64,000 nucleotides of DNA. Origin: Marinobacter salarius (GTDB taxonomy: Bacteria; Pseudomonadota; Gammaproteobacteria; Pseudomonadales; Oleiphilaceae). This document shows, one piece after another, positions 52,392 to 63,342 of the stretch; the first letter of the stretch is position 1, and each line of letters opens with the position of its first letter. The position numbers and the translations under genes were made by a program. Location of the stretch: NCBI GenBank assembly GCA_000831005.1, contig CP007152.1, forward strand, positions 1,860,001-1,924,000. The letters run 5' to 3'. The notes under the pieces are model-generated. The model worked only from the letters and a program-made list of their open reading frames with translations. It did no database searches and was not told where the DNA came from.

Positions 52392-53929
52392 CTAACAGCT
52401 GCTGGCGCCCCACATGGTAGCAACCGCCTGGCCTGCTTCGACGGTATCCTGAAGCTGTTCGCTTGTCTTGATGGCCAGTTGATGGATGTCGTGAATTTCC
52501 TCGTTCAGTTGTGAAACGGTCTGGCTCTGTTGCTCACTGGCAGCCGCAATCTGCTGGTTCAGGCCGTCGCTTTCGGCAATGCCCGCCACAATATTACGGA
52601 TTGCCTCTGCGGTGGCGGATACCTGCTCCACGCTCCTCTCGGACTGCTGTTTTCCCTGTGCGATGGATTCGACCACCCGGCGGGAGCTTCCTGCAAGGCA
52701 GTGATCATTTGCTGGATTTCATTGGTGGATTCCTGGGTGCGCTTTGCCAGGGAACGAACTTCATCGGCAACCACCGCAAAACCGCGCCCACTTTCGCCGG
52801 CCCGGGCGGCCTCAATGGCGGCATTCAGGGCCAGCAAATTGGTCTGTTCAGCGATCGCGACGATCACATCCAGAATCCGGCCAATCGATTGGCTGTTCTG
52901 ATCAAGTTCCTCCACGGTTTGGCTGGTTTCCTCGAGCTCACTCGCCAGGGCAAGAATACTGTCGCGCGCGGCGGCTGCAGAACGGGCGCTGTTTTCCCCG
53001 GAATCACGGTTTCGCGCACTGAGACCAGCAGCCTGCTGGGTATTCTCCGAAACTTCGCGAATGGTAGCGGTGAATTCCTCGATGGAGGTCGCCACGGAGG
53101 AGAGTGCTGATTGCTGCTGACCGCAGGCCTCGGAACCGCCTTGTAGCAGAGAGTTGGCCCGCAGGACATTGTCTTCGATCTGTCCGCCGCTGTCGCTGAT
53201 ACGTGCCACCATGACCTTCAGCCGGACTTCCACCAGCCGCATAGCTAGCTCAATCTGGCCCGCGACGCCGGCGTTTCCGGTGTAGACCAGTTGCTTGATG
53301 GGATGGCTGACAACAGCTCGACAACGCGTGAACAGCCGCGCCAGTGGGCGATTGAGTTGGTAGAAGAGGCCGAGGGAGAGTGTGCTGCCAAGAAGGAACA
53401 AGAGGACCGCCAGCGTTGGAGTGCCGAACATTCCAGCCATTGTGGCGGGGGCAAAACAGAGGCTGGCGACCAGCCACTGCAGGGTAGCAGGGGGCAGCCG
53501 TGGAATCCTGAGGGCAAGGGGCTGCCGGCCTTGGCTGCGGGCATGGTAAACCTGTTCGGTTCTCCGAATGGTGGCTTCATCGGGTAACCGGTAAATGGCC
53601 TGGTATTCCAACAGTGTTCCGTCCGTGTCGGTAATCGGGCTAACGAAGGCATCCAGCCACCAGTTGGTCCCATCTGCCCTACGGTTGCGGATCATGCCCA
53701 TCCAGGATTCTCCGCGGCCAATGGTTTCCCACAGGTCGTTCAGCGGCGCTCCGGGCATGTCGGGGTGCCGCAGTTTGCTGAAAGACATGGCTTTCAGTTC
53801 CTGTTTCGAGAAGCCGCAGGTTCTGCAAAAGGCGTTGCTGGCGTAGGTAATGGCACCCTTGCTGTCAGTGAGTACCAGCAGTTGGTCGTCTTCGTGGAGG
53901 GCGTCGGGTAGGGGCTCATATCGGGACAT
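52392..53929 (-). CDS. Aer-like PAS chemoreceptor (frameshifted)
   Basis: An N-terminal PAS domain ([45 protein letters not shown]) resembles that of Aer. It is followed by a transmembrane pair (about 170-210) and a methyl-accepting signalling domain with the hairpin tip [43 protein letters not shown]. One base lost near 52688 shifts the last 95 residues ([22 protein letters not shown]). It probably signals redox or energy state to CheA. The start at 53929 ([15 protein letters not shown]) is chosen by PAS alignment. Confidence 0.85.
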
Positions 53930-53949: not shown

Positions 53950-53975
53950 AAAAAGGGGCCCGCCAAAGCGGGCCC
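53950..53975 (-). terminator. Intrinsic terminator of the YCF48-MMPL-DUF1302-DUF1329 operon
   Basis: A perfect 8-bp stem, GGGCCCGC/GCGGGCCC with a four-base loop, is followed on the minus strand by a CTTTTT tract. It ends transcription 18 bases after the DUF1329 stop. Confidence 0.85.
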
Positions 53976-53992: not shown

Positions 53993-55321
53993 TTAGCTGC
54001 CGGTTGCGCGGAGATGCTGCACGTTGAACATATTGGGGGGGGACAGCTCGGGGTCGACCTGGCCCTTGAACTGGCCGGTGGTGCAGTGGCTGGCCTGCAC
54101 GTCGATCATGCTGAAGCTGTCGTCAATGGATACACCGGTACCCTCGTTCTTGGGCAGGTGGTGGTCTGGATGGGCCTGTCCGATGGTGAAGGTTTTCCAC
54201 AGGCTGCCCTTACGGTCATAGGCGACGGTGCGGGGAATGGTGAACGTCTGGGCGTCCATGTAGTGGATACGTTTCGACAGCGGATGGCTTTCATCCACCG
54301 GTTTCGCCTCCACTTCGTACACCTTTCTGAGCTGCCAGGTGATGTCCGGGAAACAGCCGCCCTTGCCACTGAAAGCCACCACCTGGTAACCATTGCTGTC
54401 GCTGTGGGTTTCTTCGTCCAGCTTCAGCTCGTTGTGGTTGTAGAACGGCATCAGCATGTAACGGGTGCCCTTATAGGTCCAGTCCATGTCGGAAATGCGG
54501 CCGTTGTAGCCCTCGAAGTCTTCGATCATCAGGTCCGAACCGAGAAAGGCATCGGTAACCTGGCCTGTGGCCAGGCGGCGCACGCGGCGCTGGAAGCCCA
54601 AATAGAGCCAGGAGTTATCACGTTTGAGGTCGTCGGCGGCCCGGTGAATCAGAAGTTGCGTATTGCGGACGTCCGCTGGGTCGAGTACCTGTACATAGAT
54701 GGCGCGGAACAGGTCAGACGGGTTGGGCGTGATTTCCGGGGTGGGTTCCTGTATCACTCGGCCCTTGTAATTCAGGAAGTGGAAGTTGAATTTGATGGTC
54801 CGCTCCACCTTGGCTGATTCCATGTCCCGGTACTTCCAGTAGAACGGCATGATGGCGGCACTGTCGCCCCAGTTGTAGCCGTACTTGTAGTTCCAGGCCA
54901 GTTTTTCGCCGGCGCGGGGGTCATCCGCATCCGGCTCCTGCGGGAACGGGCGACCGGCTTTCCAGCCGTTAATTTCCCCGACCTGCTCACCCAGGGAAAC
55001 CTCACCCAGGGCGTTGCGGGTTGCGTCCACATAGGCAGGGTGCAGGTCGAAGGACGTGGTCTTTCCCACGGCAATGGATGTCCAGCCGTTCTCGATGAAG
55101 GTATAGAAGGCCGGATCGATCACGTCCTTGAACTGTGCCACGTTGGATTCGTCGATGGTCATGCCGGCGCTAAGCCCTTCGTGGCTTGGCATTTGATCCT
55201 TGTATGGATGGAACGATTCGTTGATGACCTTGTCACTGGCAAAGGCGCCAGCGGAGAAGGCGCCCGCCGTAAGACCGATCACCAGGCCATTAAACACGGA
55301 TTTTCGGAATGCTCGTTTCAT
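53993..55321 (-). CDS. DUF1329 domain outer-envelope protein
   Basis: The 442-residue protein has a signal peptide (residues 1-28, ending AFASDKV). The DUF1329 body contains NGWKAGRPFPQEPDADDPRAGEKLAWNYKYGYNWGDS, FNFHFLNYKGRV, WLYLGFQRRVRRL and KVYEVEAKPVDESHPLSKRIHYMDAQTFTIP. The fold is LolA-like beta-rich in related proteins. It pairs with the DUF1302 gene 15 bases upstream; such pairs are linked to hydrophobic compound or lipid trafficking. Exact cargo is unknown. Confidence 0.85.
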   Translation of the reverse strand: MKRAFRKSVFNGLVIGLTAGAFSAGAFASDKVINESFHPYKDQMPSHEGLSAGMTIDESNVAQFKDVIDPAFYTFIENGWTSIAVGKTTSFDLHPAYVDATRNALGEVSLGEQVGEINGWKAGRPFPQEPDADDPRAGEKLAWNYKYGYNWGDSAAIMPFYWKYRDMESAKVERTIKFNFHFLNYKGRVIQEPTPEITPNPSDLFRAIYVQVLDPADVRNTQLLIHRAADDLKRDNSWLYLGFQRRVRRLATGQVTDAFLGSDLMIEDFEGYNGRISDMDWTYKGTRYMLMPFYNHNELKLDEETHSDSNGYQVVAFSGKGGCFPDITWQLRKVYEVEAKPVDESHPLSKRIHYMDAQTFTIPRTVAYDRKGSLWKTFTIGQAHPDHHLPKNEGTGVSIDDSFSMIDVQASHCTTGQFKGQVDPELSPPNMFNVQHLRATGS

Positions 55322-55336
55322 GATGTTTCCTCTATA

Positions 55337-57236
55337 TCAGAAGCTGTAACGCATGGTCAGTTGAAGCTCGTCTTCTTCCTGAGCCATTCCAATGGGGCCA
55401 GATTGGAAGCGGCCCAGCGGCTCGTATCCACCCAGGCCGGCAGACTCCCCGGCCGGTTGCCCCGGATAGGTGGCGGTGAACGGATCCCAGGGGTTGCAGC
55501 TACGGCAGTCATCGAATTTGCGCGCGCCGGTACCCACCTTGATGTTTGCACCGGCCGTGACACGGAAGTTGTCACTGACCAGCCACTCAACAGACGGCGC
55601 GATCGCGGTTGCCCCGGCTCGGAAATCATGTGCGGTGATGATCTGCGGGCTGAGGCGGCCATTCATGTAGAAGCCTTTGATCAGCAGGGTGCCTGTCCAG
55701 TTTTCTTTCCAGTCGGGAATACCGGCTTCACCAAACCGACGCTGCTCGCGCTCGTGATCCAGGATGTGCTGACCGAATACCTGGCCGGAGAACAGGAATG
55801 CCTGGTGTTCGTTCAGGAGGGGAATGAAGATGTTCTTGTCAGCGCCGACCACGTAGCGAACCACGTCGCTCTCGGAGTAGAGATCTTCCTCCAGCGTATT
55901 GGCGAATTCCTCGCCGGTGGTATAGGCCGCTTCAAGCCTGAGGACGGTATCAACACTCTGGGCGTAATAATCCAGGGAGCCACCGAACAGGTTGACCCTC
56001 GGGAAGTGGATATCGAAGGCAATCAGGCTTGGCCATATACCGGTTTCACCGGTAAAGCCGTTTTGTGCGGGAATACCGCCCCGAAGAGAGGGCAGTTGGG
56101 AGCGATAGGTCAGGGCGTTGAGCGAGAAGCCCAGATCACCATAAACGCCTTCCATCTTGAGGCCGACCTGGGTATTCGCCAGGCTCCAGCTTGGCATGTG
56201 CGCTTCGCGGATACCGATCTGGCCGGGGCCGAAATCCGTTGCCGCTTCGCCGCCTGCGAAGTTGGCCACTGTGCCACCATTTTCCCAGAGGCTGTTCATG
56301 CCGCGGAAGAAGCAGCCGGCATCGAGAATAACGTTGGGCTGACCGCACTGGCCGATATCGTGCGGGCGGAACTTGTCGAAGTTCCATACCAGCTGGAAAT
56401 TAAGGTCGTCGAAGGCGAGGCCATCGAACACCTCGGTTGGCCCCATGCGGTAGTCGGTCCGGAGTATCCACATGGGAATCCGGATGTCTTCCAGTTCGTC
56501 GTAGATATTGTTGCGGGAGTAATCCACCGGGTTGATCACATCCAACACCCGAAAAAGGTCGGTACGTCCCCAGATGACTTGCTGCTTGCCTAATCGGGTG
56601 CTGAGGATATTACCGTTCGAGAAGTTGTAATCGAAATCCACGTAGAGTTCGCGGATGAAATCGGCGCGGTCGTTGAACTCCTGGAATCGCATGTCGTTGG
56701 TGTCTTTGTCCAAATAACCGTCGATACACCCTCGTTCGTCCTCGTCACAGGGGCGAACCGGCACGCCGAAGGCTACACCGCCGTCGGTATCATGCAGGTT
56801 TTCACCCAACACGATCATGCCTTCGTTGGGGTTGTTCGCTTCACTGAAGGAGTTCGGCAGCTTCAGGCCGCCACCGTGGGGCACGGTGGCGTTGGGTCCC
56901 GCTGCCCGGTTTTCCAGGCGGACCGGTCCACCGGCATTGCGGCCGTATTCGTCATCATTAAGGTCGTAAACACCGTCATAGCTACCACGGAGCGTGGCGT
57001 TGACGGAGACATTACTGAAAATGCCGACATCTCCAGCCCGTTTCTCTGCTTCCAGCTGTAGTGTGTTGCGGAATTTTGAAAGCCCTACGCCATCCCGGCC
57101 GTAGGTTGCATTCTCGTAGAAGCCGTTTACCCGGGTACCTTCCTGGGCGACGGCGGAGTTGATTGGTAACAGCGCCAGGCCGGCACTTCCCGCAAGTATA
57201 GCACCAGAGCCTCAGGCCTTTTATTGTTGTTTGCAT
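55337..57236 (-). CDS. DUF1302 outer-membrane beta-barrel protein (frameshifted)
   Basis: The start MQTTIKGLRLGAILAGSAGLALLPINSAVA is a signal peptide after one base change near 57205. The mature protein of about 600 residues has alternating beta segments (RVNGFYENATYGRDGVGLSKFRNTLQLEAEK, IRELYVDFDYNFSNGNILSTRLGKQQVIWGRTDLFRVLDVINPVDY) and ends in Phe (LQLTMRYSF), the outer-membrane assembly signal. DUF1302 proteins are predicted outer-membrane channels of hydrophobic substrate operons. GAGGA precedes the ATG. It sits between the MMPL and DUF1329 genes. Confidence 0.85.
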
Positions 57237-57279: not shown

Positions 57280-59744
57280 TCAGGCCCGGTACGGCTCTCC
57301 CGGCACGAACCCATCCTCTTGTTCCCGTGGGGAACCGGACGATGGAGATGGTGTTGGTGGGTGACGATCAGCATGGAGAATGCCGTCTTCGTCGGCGTAA
57401 ACATCGGTAACAAAGCGGGGCTTGAAGACCAGTACCCAGGAAGGCACCAGAAGCATGGCCGCGATGCCGTTGATCACGATCATGACGCACAGCAGCAATG
57501 CTGCATCAGACTGGAATCGGAGGTCTGAGAAAATGACCACATGATGATGCCCGCCATCAACGTCAGCGCGGTGAAACTGATGGCCATGCCGGTGGTGGAT
57601 ATGGCTCGCCTGACGGCGTCCCTCAGGTTGCCAAGTCGGGCCATTTCTTCCCGTATCCGGTCCATCATGTAGATGGAATAATCGATGCCGACGCCGATAC
57701 CCACGGCAATCACCGGCACGGTATTGATGTCGATATTGAGCGCATTAAAGCCCATATAGGCGTAGGTGAGAGTGGTTGCGAAAATCATCGCCAACAGCAT
57801 CATCAGCCCGGCGTGTAATGAGGTGTAGAACAGCATGACAAAGGCAAAGATCAGCAGGAAAACCAGTGGCAGAACAATGACATTGGTCTCGAAGGCTGAT
57901 TCGTTCATTGCGGCGGCAACACCAAGGGTTCCCCCCGCGAGTTTGATGGTCAGGCCCTCAACGCTGTCACCGTTCTCCGCGATCCATTCCTTGGCCATGT
58001 GAATGGCACGGCGGATGGTCTCGCCCTGGCGGTCCTTGTAATAGAACACCAAGTTGGCAACGCGGTCGTCGGTGTCGTTGAATTCATCAAGGGCCCCGGG
58101 AATCGGGCTGGAGGCCATGTAGGTAAACATCAGCCCGCCGACATAGCCCGCATCGTGAGGAATCTGGTACCAACGGGGGTCGTCGTTGTGCATCAGGCGG
58201 TTAACTTGCTTAACGAGGTCGGGCAGGCCTTTGCTGCCGCCCACTTCCGGGTCCTTCAGCATGTGGGATTGCAGATCAGAAAGGGCAGCCAGTACCTCCG
58301 GACGTTTCAGGCCCCCTTTCTCTTCGGTTTCCGCCACGATGTAGAGCTCCTCGGAGCCCGGGAAGCGCTCATTCACCACGCGGGAAGAAACGTTGTAGTC
58401 GTGGTCGGGATACAGGATGGGAGAGCCTGGCTCCGAGTCGCCAATCTGCACGTTGGACGCCGCTAATAGTCCTGCGGCCATCGCCAGTGCCGCGACACTC
58501 AGCACCACTTTCGCCGCGCCTGGCCGTGCAACCGTGCGTGAGCAACTGGCGCCGATATGGCGCAGGGCGGTTTCGCGCAGGTTCGGGTCTTTGGGCGTTG
58601 GCAGAATGGATAACAGAAGTGGCACGCCGATCAGCACCGTGAACACAACAGTGATCGCCCAAAGGGAAGCATAGATGCCCAGATGGGTATTCAACGGAAT
58701 GGACCCGATGGCAATGAGCGACAGGCCAATAGCATCCGACACAACACCCAGGGAACCAGGGCGGAAAAGACTGTCAAAGGTCGCTTTTGCGGCTTTGGGG
58801 CCACTACCCAGTTCGCGGGTTTCCGCATAGTAGCGTTCAACGAGCTGTACGCCATGGCTCATCGCCCTGGCTGCAATCAAAAAGGGGATCACCAGCCCGA
58901 GCGGATCCAGGTTGTAACCGAGCAGGCTGATGATCCCAAGCCCCCAGATCGTGGAGACCAAAACGCCGCCCAGGGGGATCAGCACACCGTAGGCCTTGCG
59001 GAAATGGAAAACGAGTAAGGCCAGCATGGTGATTACGGTGAAAATAAAGATCTGGAGGATCTGCTCCATGTACGTGTAGGCCCACCCCACCAGGACTGGC
59101 TGTCCCGTGGCGTAGATCCTGACTCCCGCGCTTTCCTCCGCTTCACGCAGCTGTTGTAACTGTGCAAACGTCTTTTCGTAATCCAGCTTGCCTTCAATCA
59201 GTTGCGCCTTGACCAGGGCCATTTTCATATCTGGAGACACAAGGGGGCCGTACACCCGTGGGTTGGCCGCCACATCGGCTTTCATGGCAGCCAGTGCTTC
59301 CCGTGAGTACTCGCCGGAGGTGGAGTCGTAGTAGGGTTCCGAGTTGATGCTGCCGACTTCCGTAAGCCAGATTTTGCGGGAATTCCGGTGAGTCACGCTG
59401 GACACAAGGTTGTGGTTAACCCCAGGCAGGTTGTCCACGGCCTGGGTGATTCGGTCGATCTTGGCGAGATTCTCGTTGGTAAAAATGTCGCCATCTTCGA
59501 ATTCGACACCCACCGTAAGAACGTTGGCGCCGCCAAAGCTGTCCTTGATGCTGTTGTGCAGTTCGATATAGGGATGTTGCTGCGGCAGCAGGTCGGCGAA
59601 GTCGGTGTAGATTTTCAGCCCGGGGATACGCAGGGCGAACGCCAGCGTGAGGATGGTGATCACGCTCAATACCTTGCGCGGGTTGTTGAAGATCCATAGC
59701 TCCAGCGAATGCAGGAGATGGGTGAATCGATGCAGTCCAGGCAT
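57280..59744 (-). CDS. MMPL/RND-family exporter (frameshifted near the end)
   Basis: The protein of about 821 residues has the 12-helix RND/MMPL plan: a first helix at about 22-40, a large periplasmic loop, the helical bundle with LVIPFLIAARAMSHGVQLVERYYAETRE, then the second half with NALNIDINTVPVIAVGIGVGIDYSIYMMDRIREEMARLG. The Asp in GIGVGIDYSIY matches proton-relay residues. The break near 57538 is bridged into VVFSDLRFQSDAALLLCVMIVINGIAAMLLVPSWVL. It is expected to move lipidic or aromatic molecules with the DUF1302 and DUF1329 proteins. Confidence 0.87.
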
Positions 59745-59755
59745 GGCGGAGTTCC

Positions 59756-60745
59756 TCAGTCAGTGCTGGCCGAGTGGGCCACGGGAGTTTCAAGGTTCAG
59801 CAGCAGGCCACGGCCACCAGCGGCGAGTAGTCGGTGGTCGGGGAGAATCAGGCCGGTACGCAAATACAGGGGTTGGTCGGACGCGGAGATCTTCTGCCAG
59901 GATCGCCCCGTCTGCTGCAATACGGTGGCGTTATCCGCCAGGGCGTATAACCCTGAAGGGCCGGCAACGAAACCGAATATCGGGGCGTTGATGCCGGTGG
60001 GGGATTTCTCCCAGTTCTCTCCGCCGTCGGCGGTGTGGTAGATGAAACCGTTCAGGCCGCCAACCCAACCTTCATTGTCTGAACGGAAATAGCTGGAATG
60101 GGCGTAAAACTCATCCGGAAGGTAGCCGGCATAGTCCCAGTTCTCTCCGCCGTCCGTGGTTTTGAGTACCAGGCCATACTCACCGGTTATGAAAGCATGG
60201 TCGGCATCGATGAACTGGAGGTTGTTGAGGATGGCGTCTTCGTTGAGTGAAGTCTCAGTCCAGGTCTCACCCTGGTCAGCGCTGCCCTGAATAGTGGTGA
60301 AAGCACCTGCTGCCCACCAGTTGCCGTCCGGAGCGCAAGCGGCGGTCATCATCTGTTCCTGGCTGGGCAGGGAATGCGCCGTCCAGTTATCTCCGCTGGT
60401 ATCGCCATGCCAGATTTCGTTGTTGAACGTCAGCGCAATAAAGCTGTTGTCCGGGCATACGTCCAACGCAAGGAAGCTTTCCGACGTTGGCGTCTGCCGT
60501 TTCCAGCTTTCTCCGTTGTCTGAGCTGACCAACACAACACCGTTGTTGCCAGTCAGCACGATAACCTCGTCATTGCGAGCAATGGCTTGATAGAAATCGG
60601 TCCGTTTAACGGCCTGTCCCGACTGATCTCGAACCGCGTCAAGATCCAGGGGCGCTTCGCAACCCGTTAACAGAACCGAAAACAATCCGACCAGCGATAC
60701 GGCTGCGCCGGTAGTGCGCCATTTGCGCAGGGGGGCATTTCGCAT
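59756..60745 (-). CDS. YCF48-like beta-propeller lipoprotein
   Basis: The 329-residue protein has a lipobox signal (LVGLFSVLLTGCEAP). A repeat propeller follows, with the BNR/YCF48 motifs SSDNGESWKRQ, SADQGETWTET, TTDGGENWDYA and TADGGENWEKS. It is the first gene of the operon leading into the MMPL transporter, with 11 bases between them. Genes of this kind accompany RND-DUF1302-DUF1329 sets; the propeller may scaffold the envelope complex. It follows a sigma-54 promoter. Confidence 0.85.
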   Translation of the reverse strand: MRNAPLRKWRTTGAAVSLVGLFSVLLTGCEAPLDLDAVRDQSGQAVKRTDFYQAIARNDEVIVLTGNNGVVLVSSDNGESWKRQTPTSESFLALDVCPDNSFIALTFNNEIWHGDTSGDNWTAHSLPSQEQMMTAACAPDGNWWAAGAFTTIQGSADQGETWTETSLNEDAILNNLQFIDADHAFITGEYGLVLKTTDGGENWDYAGYLPDEFYAHSSYFRSDNEGWVGGLNGFIYHTADGGENWEKSPTGINAPIFGFVAGPSGLYALADNATVLQQTGRSWQKISASDQPLYLRTGLILPDHRLLAAGGRGLLLNLETPVAHSASTD

Positions 60746-60794
60746 TTTATGTCACCGTCTTTGTTTTTGTGGATAACGCGACTGACGGTGATTT

Positions 60795-60810
60795 AGCAAC
60801 GCGTGTGCCA
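60795..60810 (-). promoter_or_regulatory. Sigma-54 promoter of the YCF48-MMPL-DUF1302-DUF1329 operon
   Basis: On the minus strand TGGCACACGCGTTGCT is a full match to TGGCAC-N5-TTGC with GG and GC ten bases apart. It ends 50 bases before the YCF48 ATG. Confidence 0.82.
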
Positions 60811-60912
60811 TGCACGTTTTCGCGCTGTTAACTGTCTGTATTTAATGGTGAAGGTGACGGTTTTAGAGAGCTTTAGGGAAGTTTGGTGGGGCAGTTAATA
60901 GGATTGAGATTT

Positions 60913-60956
60913 ATCAAATGATGAAACGGGTGGGGCGTTTGTTGATATCGTCAAAC
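60913..60956. promoter_or_regulatory. Upstream activator sites for the leftward sigma-54 promoter
   Basis: A 14-base box, ATCAAATGATGAAA (60913-60926), and an imperfect 20-base palindrome, GTTTGTTGATATCGTCAAAC (60937-60956), lie about 110 and 138 bases upstream of the -24 element. The box also occurs twice in the dmpK upstream region. The spacing fits enhancer sites of a DmpR/XylR-type activator. Confidence 0.6.
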
Positions 60957-61003
60957 CAGAAAACGAACCGTGGACATCCCTGTCATGGCGCGACGGTTGT
61001 GGT

Positions 61004-62709
61004 TCAGCTTTCGGCGAGAATGCCGGATTTCTTGAGCCGGTAGGCGAGAGCGGGGCGGCTCAGACCAAGGATACGCGCTGCGCCGGAAACGTTCTGGTTG
61101 GCCTCTTCCATGGCACGCCGCATCAGCGTTTCCTCGACATCGTCCAGGCCGATGCCATTGCCCAGTATCTGGCTGGCCCAGTCGCCCCTGGACGTTTCAG
61201 ATGTCTTTTCAACAAGTTGTCCGTGGCTGTCGACAATACCCTGGGGCTGGCTAGGTTGCGGCTCGGGAACACCTGCAAACAGGGATTCGCGGCTGATGGA
61301 CTCATTGTTGTCGGTCAGGATGACGCCACGCTCGATAACGTTTTCAAGCTCCCGGATATTTCCCGGCCAATGGTAGTGCAGGCAGAGTTCAAGGGCCTTG
61401 TCGGAGAGTCCGAGTGTGCGCTTGTTATACTCAGAGTGGAATTTATTGAGGAAATGCTCGGCCAGTAGCGGCAGGTCTTCCAGCCGTTCCCTGAGCGGTG
61501 GAATCTTCACCGGAAACACATTGAGTCGGTAAAACAGATCGGAACGGAAACGGCCCTCTTCCACGGCTTTTTCAAGGCTTTCGTTGGTAGCCGCAATAAC
61601 CCGGACATCGACCGCCCGTGTGCGGTTGTCACCCACGCGCTCCAACTCCCCTTCCTGCAGCACCCTCAGCAGTGTGGCCTGAGCCCGGGGCGTGAGCTCA
61701 ACCACCTCGTCGAGAAAAATGGTGCCGGTGTTGGCTCGTTCAAACCGGCCCGGCCGGGACTGGTTGGCACCGGTGTAGGCGCCTTTTTCCACGCCAAACA
61801 GTTCCGCTTCGATCAGGTCCGGGGGAATAGCGGCGCAATTGACCGCGATAAAGGGTTGTTCGGCTCGTTCACTGCGAAGGTGAACGCTGCGGGCAATCAC
61901 TTCCTTGCCTACGCCGGTTTCGCCTAGCAATAAGACCGACACTTTACCAGAGCGGCCTTGTCGATCATCTTGCAGACCTTGTTGTAGGAGGCGGACTGGC
62001 CTATGCCGTAATACTGCCCCTCCTGCTTTTCGAGGCTGCTGCGTAAAGAACTGACTTGGCTCTGGAGGTCATACAGTTCTTCCATGATGGTGTCTGCCTT
62101 GAAGTATTGGGCAAATTCGGCGGCGTCCTCCCATTCCTCGGCAGGCTTGCCCACGATCATGCATTTTTCGTCACCACAGCCACGGCAGCTGACCTCGCGA
62201 AAGATGATTTCCCGGCCCATAAACGAGGAGGTGTAGGCGCAGGCGTATCCAAGCAGTGACCAGCAGACCGGTTCATCCATCTGCCCAAGTTCTGTCTGGC
62301 AGATATCCACTTCAAACGAATCAACCCATTCCAGCTCGCCATAGAAGCTGCCGGAGTCGTGATCAATGTCGATCTCCATGGGAACGACTTTGACCATGCC
62401 CTTGAGTGAATGCAGTTGGGGGCCAGCGAGAAAGATGTCGAGTTCACTGCAGTGCGGGCGAAGCTTCCGGGCCAGTTCGGCGTCTTTCAGTCCGGACTGG
62501 TATCCCAGGCGCAGGAGAAAGCCCTTCGCGCGCTCAATACCCATGGTATTCACCATTTCGCGACGAAAGGCGGCCATGGCACTGACTTGCATCAGTAGCA
62601 TGCGTTGCTCGCCAAACCAGATTTTGCCTTCCGTGCTCTGGAACCGGATCTGCTCCGTAAGATCCTGAAAATCCACATACTGCAATTGTGGTTTGTAGGT
62701 AATAGCCAT
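61004..62709 (-). CDS. dmpR: DmpR-type phenol-responsive sigma-54 activator (frameshifted)
   Basis: Repaired length is about 568 residues. The N-terminal XylR_N/V4R sensor (about 1-210) reads [69 protein letters not shown] and the cysteine-rich [24 protein letters not shown]. The AAA+ core has Walker A GETGVGKE, the sigma-54 contact loop GAYTGA, Walker B GTIFLDEV and [16 protein letters not shown] Fis-type helix-turn-helix ends it ([22 protein letters not shown]). One G restored near 61950 ([13 protein letters not shown]) joins the halves. The start at 62709 follows DmpR/MopR-type relatives. It activates the phenol hydroxylase operon on binding phenol. Confidence 0.92.
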
Positions 62710-62822
62710 ACTCAGGAGCCCCGTTTGTAATTGTATGGGGTCGCGTCCTGGAAAGGTCGTCCAGCGCGAAGGCAGCCGAACGCCGCCTTTTTCATATAAC
62801 ACCCTATCCTTGTCACAAATCA

Positions 62823-62836
62823 ATCAAATGATGAAA
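62823..62836. promoter_or_regulatory. ATCAAATGATGAAA box, distal copy
   Basis: An exact copy of the boxes at 60913 and 62901. It lies about 205 bases upstream of the dmpK -24 element and about 114 bases upstream of the dmpR start, so it might also influence dmpR. Confidence 0.5.
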
Positions 62837-62863
62837 TTTCAGGCGAAAGTCACGGTTGGCTGC

Positions 62864-62914
62864 TGATCTGAGCATTTGCTCAGATCACGATTTCATGTTG
62901 ATCAAATGATGAAA
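62864..62914. promoter_or_regulatory. Upstream activator sites for the dmpK promoter
   Basis: A perfect inverted repeat with 11-bp arms TGATCTGAGCA/TGCTCAGATCA and a TT spacer (62864-62887) is centred about 160 bases upstream of the -24 element. The box TTGATCAAATGATGAAA (62898-62914) follows. Two sites about 30 bases apart at this distance match the layout of DmpR/XylR upstream activating sequences. Confidence 0.75.
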
Positions 62915-63034
62915 AATTCGTCTGGCTTCCTGATCTCACCCTTCGATAATCCACTCTGTATCAGCGCCCGCCTTTCTATATAAAGCCTTTTAAAACAGAA
63001 GTCTGGGTTTTTATTGACGGCAGGTTTCGATGCT

Positions 63035-63050
63035 TGGCACAGCCGTTGCT
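63035..63050 (+). promoter_or_regulatory. Sigma-54 promoter of the phenol hydroxylase operon
   Basis: TGGCACAGCCGTTGCT is a perfect -24/-12 element (GG and GC ten bases apart), with transcription expected near 63061 and dmpK starting at 63091. Confidence 0.9.
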
Positions 63051-63090
63051 CCAGCTGTGGCAACCCATAACAAACACAAGGGTGTCAACG

Positions 63091-63342
63091 ATGACTGAGC
63101 ATGCAAAAAGCTTCGACGAGCTGACCCGCTACATCCGGGTCCGAAGTGGGCCAGAGGACAGATTCGTAGAGTTCGATTTTGCCATCGGACATCCCGAACT
63201 GTTTGTTGAGCTTGTCCTTCCCCGCGAAGCGTTCGAAATCTTCTGCAAGCACAACAATGTCGTTCACATGGATTCCGACATGATCCGCGAGATTGATGCG
63301 GACATGGTCAAGTGGCGCTTCGGCGAGAAGGGTCACCGCTGA
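63091..63342 (+). CDS. dmpK: Phenol hydroxylase assembly subunit DmpK
   Basis: The 83-residue protein (MTEHAKSFDELTRYIRVRSGPEDRFVEFDFAIGHPELFVELVLPREAFEIFCKHNNVV) matches DmpK/PhyK, the small accessory subunit that helps assemble the active multicomponent phenol hydroxylase. It is the first gene of the operon. An in-frame start at 63034 is rejected because it lies inside the promoter. AAGGGTG is the likely ribosome-binding site. Confidence 0.92.
   Translation: MTEHAKSFDELTRYIRVRSGPEDRFVEFDFAIGHPELFVELVLPREAFEIFCKHNNVVHMDSDMIREIDADMVKWRFGEKGHR

Follow-up and report, generated by a model that had tools for sequence, protein, structure and literature searches.

The dmpR locus and its two operons

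The 64-kb window analysed here, by which we mean the whole stretch of Marinobacter salarius DNA, is part of a single-contig genome of 4,616,532 bases and contains a regulator gene of the DmpR family, dmpR, which sits between two divergent operons: the dmpK phenol hydroxylase operon on its right and a YCF48-MMPL-DUF1302-DUF1329 operon, predicted to encode an envelope transport system, on its left. Approximately 12 kb around dmpR share 96% DNA identity with Marinobacter algicola DG893 (locus L013). By domain search, dmpR spans 61004..62709 on the minus strand, and the XylR_N, V4R, sigma-54 AAA+ and Fis HTH domains that define the family are all present, in two in-frame pieces, with the frame broken near 61942. 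The sensor is closest to the DmpR/CapR structure 6iy8 (E 1.6e-122). Alignment to this structure shows that His100 and Trp128, which position the phenol hydroxyl in DmpR (PMC7264223), are kept and that the Cys/Glu residues of the zinc site are identical, the Cys numbers printed in PMC7264223 differing by two. Here and throughout, statements about published work refer to the available portions of the cited articles.

To the right of dmpR, dmpK (63091..63342, plus strand) and the start of dmpL (63391, plus strand) were recognized by domain match, while the remaining phenol hydroxylase and meta-cleavage operon, which runs on beyond the window (L009), was judged by eye. The four genes to the left run leftward on the minus strand, in the same direction as dmpR. 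The first encodes a YCF48/COG4447-like predicted lipoprotein resembling AmeC (59756..60745; domain match and lipobox pattern), and a lipobox-like pattern, albeit a loose one, is found in the YCF48 protein of 34/34 relatives. It is followed by a gene for an AmeD-like transporter of the MMPL and putatively HAE3 type of the resistance-nodulation-division (RND) superfamily (57280..59744, frame broken near 57537), a gene for an AmeA-like DUF1302 protein that is placed in the outer membrane by analogy (55337..57236, frame broken near 57196, upstream boundary estimated from L013), and a gene for an AmeB-like, LolA-like DUF1329 protein that is periplasmic by analogy (53993..55321, domain match).

Sigma-54 promoters and paired enhancer sites

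Scanning for the sigma-54 consensus TGGCACN5TTGCW revealed only two mismatch-free sites within the window, the promoter of the dmpK operon (TGGCACAGCCGTTGCT, 63035..63050, plus strand) and the -24/-12 promoter of the YCF48-MMPL-DUF1302-DUF1329 operon (TGGCACACGCGTTGCT, 60795..60810, minus strand), with GG and GC ten bases apart in both. A first-pass annotation of this DNA had placed both promoters, including their ten-base spacing, at exactly these coordinates. It had also reported a shared 14-mer, ATCAAATGATGAAA, which is indeed exact at 60913, 62823 and 62901 and occurs nowhere else in the genome, and had paired one copy on each side with an inverted repeat, which the following arrangement bears out.

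Upstream of the phenol operon, a proximal upstream activating sequence (UAS) at 62898..62914 (plus strand, TTGATCAAATGATGAAA) contains the 14-mer at 62901 as part of the palindrome TTGATCAAATGATGAA, and the distal UAS at 62864..62887 (plus strand) is a perfect inverted repeat with 11-bp arms and a 2-bp loop. The corresponding elements of the left operon are a proximal UAS at 60910..60926 (minus strand), with the 14-mer at 60913, and a weaker distal inverted repeat at 60937..60956 (minus strand), which has 5-bp arms and a 10-bp loop and is weak on its own. On the right, the two UAS are centred at 62875.5 and 62905.5, a spacing of 30 bp, and on the left at 60917.5 and 60946.5, a spacing of 29 bp. 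Measured to the first nucleotide of the sigma-54 site, the proximal centre is 129 bp away on the right and 107 bp away on the left. For the XylR/DmpR group of regulators, centres of UAS pairs have been described as 29-42 nt apart, and the printed motif of one member, AphR (GCTTGATCATTTGATCATGC), was called similar to DmpR, XylR and HbpR sites (PMC6449761). Paired palindromic UAS with this spacing, approximately 100-200 nt upstream, are thus found at both promoters, the distal one on the left being weak.

The third copy of the 14-mer, at 62823 (UAS 62820..62836, plus strand), lies outside both enhancer pairs, approximately 115 bp ahead of the start of dmpR, and is a possible autoregulatory site of dmpR. 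In 20/39 loci, the three best sites include one resembling it at a distance of 207-211 bp to the dmpK promoter. The 14-mer as a repeat meaningful in itself was rejected, as it is exact in only 11/124 genomes of the genus (own included) and it is the palindrome that is conserved; by this comparison, it represents a drifted variant of the enhancer palindrome. The perfect palindrome TGATCANNTGATCA (0 mismatches) is present at five related loci (L027, L030, L031, L032 and L038). A copy of the 14-mer with 1 mismatch was observed at genome position 312124.

Genome-wide, only 7 mismatch-free sigma-54 sites exist, two of them at the dmpR locus. When TGATCANNTGATCA-type sites with up to 3 mismatches were sought 60-260 bp upstream, 3 of the 7 had one: both promoters described here and a site before the second dmpK (4,287,312), which precedes a second phenol hydroxylase operon. 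The genome contains five DUF1329 genes, and no composite sigma-54/UAS site was found at the four other loci (18-19 kb each). Of these, L090 is the only one in which YCF48- and MMPL-like genes lie nearby; in two, a sigma-54 site with 1 mismatch is present but lacks a UAS. Co-regulation of these four loci with the dmpR locus was therefore rejected.

Besides DmpR, the only XylR_N protein of the genome is DmpR2, the sensor of which is 89% identical to that of DmpR. Its gene (L011:2807-4900, genome 4.2978-4.2999 Mb) adjoins a multicomponent monooxygenase cluster, of toluene-monooxygenase type by eye, as well as the second phenol hydroxylase cluster. Downstream of dmpR2, we found one UAS with one mismatch and a YCF48 remnant of 49 residues (76% identity); a sigma-54 site was not found there, the best match having 4 mismatches. 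Judging from these remains, the surroundings of dmpR2 apparently represent a decayed copy of an arrangement with two outputs. The close similarity of the two sensors, together with UAS of one type at the dmpR and dmpR2 loci, would also fit a left promoter that depends on sigma-54 and is driven mainly by DmpR2 (4.298 Mb), or by both regulators through a shared binding site. However, it is dmpR that adjoins YCF48 in 34/54 loci of relatives, and the frame of dmpR2, too, is broken in this assembly, so we regard this explanation as unlikely.

Conservation in relatives

A scan with the DmpR sensor sequence yielded 54 loci from relatives, of which L024 (no match to the control domain) was excluded from site, conservation and frame comparisons, and the remnant L011 from conservation counts. 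YCF48 lies downstream of dmpR in 34 of the 54 loci, all of them gammaproteobacterial, and all four left genes are found beside dmpR in 31; of the other three, two (L023 and L057) are cut short by the end of the sequence and one (L037) has a partial YCF48 only. The 20 loci without this arrangement comprise eleven with neither phenol hydroxylase nor left operon, three from Alcaligenes, two short contigs, three (L024, L035 and L050) that have phenol hydroxylase and no YCF48 match, with the downstream part short or missing, and one Colwellia metagenome-assembled genome (L065) with the genes in another orientation. In the latter, dmpR is located near DUF1329, DUF1302 and MMPL genes with a gene for a methyl-accepting chemotaxis protein (MCP) between them, and a composite sigma-54/UAS site is absent.

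The first-pass annotation had proposed to look for the boxes and the -24/-12 elements in related genomes, and they proved to be widely conserved. With the window included, the left promoter could be compared in 35 loci and the right one in 39, UAS being counted at 90-140 bp. A left sigma-54 site with up to 1 mismatch is present in 35/35 loci (34/34 relatives with YCF48 downstream of dmpR), accompanied by a UAS with up to 2 mismatches in 28/35 and with up to 3 mismatches in 33/35; the seven loci missed at the stricter threshold are L017, L020, L021, L023, L041, L051 and L056. On the right, the sigma-54 site is present in 39/39 loci, with a UAS at these two thresholds in 31/39 and 38/39, the stricter one missing L017, L018, L019, L028, L034, L036, L037 and L056. 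A partner site 28-32 bp further out (up to 5 mismatches) was found in 29/35 loci on the left and 38/39 on the right, compared to 1.3% and 2.4% of shuffles. Distances between UAS centre and promoter, judged by eye, are mostly 105-107, 115-119 or 127-132 bp, and larger for the distal sites.

These sites were also recovered when the 54 loci (1,011,984 bases) were scanned blindly on both strands for composite sites, i.e., a sigma-54 site with up to 1 mismatch and a UAS with up to 2 mismatches 90-180 bp upstream. Among its 72 matches, 32 point toward dmpK, 28 lie before YCF48 (28/34 loci), 10 are downstream of dmpR where YCF48 was not detected, and 2 are elsewhere, one of which (L048:11909) is also downstream of dmpR. 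The same scan of the reversed sequences gave 0 matches, and in shuffled sequence (50 replicates of each region; 1750 left, 1950 right), a sigma-54 site with up to 1 mismatch never occurred together with an enhancer with up to 2. Based on the shuffles, the reversed-sequence scan and the genome-wide rarity of the sites, a chance origin was rejected.

For sequence divergence, relatives were grouped by hand into Marinobacter, Halopseudomonas-like and Pseudomonas. UAS identity between Marinobacter and the Halopseudomonas-like group is 79%, and 71% to Pseudomonas, compared to 32% and 35% for the spacer. Overall, spacers are 41% identical within Marinobacter and 32-35% between groups, while UAS reach 71-85% and promoters 84-88%, although UAS and promoter were picked as best matches (the UAS in a fixed interval), which raises UAS identity. 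The left promoters of 34 relatives also share a conserved TTTCA stretch between UAS and promoter, positioned at -31 to -27 relative to the sigma-54 site.

These comparisons also bear on the explanation that the 14-mers are IHF sites or serve dmpR and dmpK only, with the left operon transcribed by read-through from dmpR. The 14-mer region does match the IHF consensus WATCAANNNNTTR with one mismatch, and a terminator-like site between dmpR and YCF48 was sought on the dmpR strand without one being found. However, the perfect palindrome occurs in the five loci named above, the left sigma-54 site is kept in every locus compared, and in L039 and L042-L044, where dmpR and YCF48 are separated by a gap of approximately 0.9-1.7 kb, UAS and promoter remain with YCF48, not dmpR, at the same 107-bp spacing. 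We therefore consider this explanation very improbable.

The far end of the left operon is probably marked by an intrinsic-terminator-like hairpin 3' of DUF1329 (53956..53975, minus strand), which has 8 G-C pairs and a T run, although the count of such sites in the left-operon region (3, compared to a shuffle mean of 2.2) is not in itself above chance. Directly past the hairpin lies a gene for a PAS-containing MCP (52392-53929), and an MCP match follows DUF1329 in 12/54 loci of relatives. This gene was set aside as a fifth member of the operon because the hairpin intervenes. A paralogue of it adjoins the second phenol hydroxylase cluster (L012:8059-9597).

Eleven loci, mostly from Pseudomonas and Stutzerimonas, have no phenol hydroxylase match in the fetched flanks, and in 9 of them (L047, L048, L049, L052-L055, L058 and L062) a composite site is located downstream of dmpR (at approximately 11900); L045 and L046 lack both operons as well as a downstream site. 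In the four that were inspected (L047, L048, L052 and L062), the genes that follow are one for a small protein whose start resembles a signal peptide and one of aldehyde-dehydrogenase type, with Pfam applied to L047 only. It is conceivable, at slightly less than even probability, that dmpR is the core of a cassette with two outputs, in which the downstream sigma-54/UAS slot is an old second output with exchangeable protective cargo: an AmeABCD-like pump alongside phenol degradation in Marinobacter, Halopseudomonas and some Pseudomonas, and a small-protein/aldehyde-dehydrogenase operon in the other group, mostly Pseudomonas and Stutzerimonas.

Probable joint control by DmpR, and known systems

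Since both operons begin at a consensus sigma-54 promoter with paired enhancers of the XylR/DmpR type, control of both by DmpR is predicted. On the strength of the sequence evidence, DmpR very probably switches on the phenol hydroxylase/meta-cleavage operon and a likely AmeABCD-like RND export operon jointly upon sensing phenols. Phenol would bind the sensor domain, in which the His100/Trp128 anchor is present, and DmpR would bind the 29-30-bp-spaced palindromes, which lie approximately 107-160 bp ahead of the -24 element on each side, and remodel sigma-54 RNA polymerase at both promoters. The right operon would then degrade phenols, while the left operon (YCF48/AmeC lipoprotein, RND protein AmeD, AmeA and AmeB) would export phenols or toxic intermediates. 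The proposal of the first-pass annotation that the envelope operon is a second DmpR target is thereby upheld as far as conservation of promoter and boxes is concerned, and partly supported as a whole.

Several observations weigh against this interpretation. In all three Alcaligenes loci (3/3), dmpR and phenol hydroxylase are present while both the left operon and the downstream site are missing, and the Haliea locus L037, with its partial YCF48 match, has no MMPL match. The left distal UAS deviates at 4 of 12 positions and is weak, and where a UAS was sought 100-122 bp out, 6/35 left promoters (L020-L023, L051 and L056) had only a 4-mismatch site, L020-L023 having better sites at 60 and 137 bp. 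The relatives are phylogenetically non-independent. Furthermore, the best NCBIfam model for the MMPL protein, HAE3 TIGR00921, scores 118 bits on the broken frame, against a curated cut-off of 352.

The broken frames are a further point, as the strain would have lost its regulators if the breaks in both dmpR and dmpR2 (L011) were real. Compared to L013, the window is short by one or two bases in dmpR (near 61942), MMPL (57537), DUF1302 (57196) and the MCP gene (52422 and 52688), and all coding gaps between the two sequences are on the side of the window. This one-sidedness indicates assembly error, which probably accounts for the breaks in all four genes, while a true loss of frames in this strain may have occurred. 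In relatives, the matched dmpR stretch is without stop or frame change in 53/53 and open to the end in 52/53; in L048 (Stutzerimonas), match and frame end early.

If joint control holds true, a second and conserved task is likely for DmpR, the textbook phenol regulator, in marine gammaproteobacteria, where it would link the breakdown of a toxic substrate to a dedicated pump in the envelope. For DUF1302/DUF1329/YCF48/MMPL operons, this would provide a specific predicted inducer and a role amenable to testing, with relevance for DmpR-based phenol biosensors and bioremediation strains.

The closest counterpart of the left operon is the tetrapartite RND (HAE3) transporter AmeABCD of Castellaniella defragrans, with which it shares the DUF1302, DUF1329, COG4447 (YCF48-like) and RND components; unlike here, where the order is C-D-A-B, the ame genes are ordered A-B-C-D and lie in a monoterpene island, and the available portion of the article describes no regulator for them (PMC6394551). 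From this analogy, we infer export of phenols by the left operon. Envelope components beside catabolic genes would also be compatible with uptake of phenolic compounds, and the evidence for export by AmeABCD comes from one betaproteobacterial study, in which the mutant showed nearly the same real-time efflux of the dye Nile Red as the wild type, a further point against the proposed role. However, deletion of ameABCD lowered monoterpene tolerance and raised Nile Red accumulation (PMC6394551), and the cluster beside etpR, considered below, was called a putative solvent efflux system (PMC4630880). Uptake instead of export therefore appears improbable, though somewhat less so than control by DmpR2.

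With regard to the regulator, Pseudomonas DmpR, which controls dmpKLMNOP in response to phenol, is of the same type and acts from palindromic UAS approximately 100-200 bp upstream of a sigma-54 promoter; the available portion of PMC7264223 describes no second, envelope-transport target for it. Likewise, our search of open-licence PMC articles, as far as their text was available, found no description of a DmpR-linked pump operon for Marinobacter or Pseudomonas. The Buc cluster of the betaproteobacterium Zoogloea oleivorans combines a sigma-54 Fis-family regulator and DUF1302 and DUF1329 genes with dmpKLMNOP; control sites are not described for it in the available portion of the article (PMC7012976).

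The first-pass annotation knew of no DUF1302/DUF1329 operon under DmpR, a claim that has to be corrected, as two related systems precede the present one. One is that of AphR, a member of the XylR/DmpR group, for which control of DUF1302, PF07044, COG1033 and COG4447 genes in Burkholderia sp. 383 has been predicted (PMC6449761). This regulon resembles the present one in phenol hydroxylase, in the same four families and in paired palindromes 29-42 nt apart; it differs in being betaproteobacterial and a prediction only, whereas the operon described here adjoins dmpR in most loci. In Azoarcus, a chemotaxis transducer gene is also part of a related operon controlled by AphT (PMC6449761). The second system is that of EtpR, a DmpR-family regulator of Aromatoleum aromaticum EbN1, which is encoded between catabolic and 'efflux' clusters, both with sigma-54 motifs, and on which the expression of either cluster depends: upon its deletion, their transcripts and proteins were lost (PMC4630880). 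The gene families of the efflux cluster are not named in the available portion of that article. One sentence of a later paper calls EtpR a 'repressor' (PMC10715001). While the EtpR system serves an anaerobic p-ethylphenol pathway in a betaproteobacterium, its layout, with the regulator gene between catabolic and efflux clusters, is that of the dmpR locus. Thus, given EtpR and the prediction for AphR, joint control of catabolic and efflux operons by one regulator, as proposed here, would not be unprecedented.

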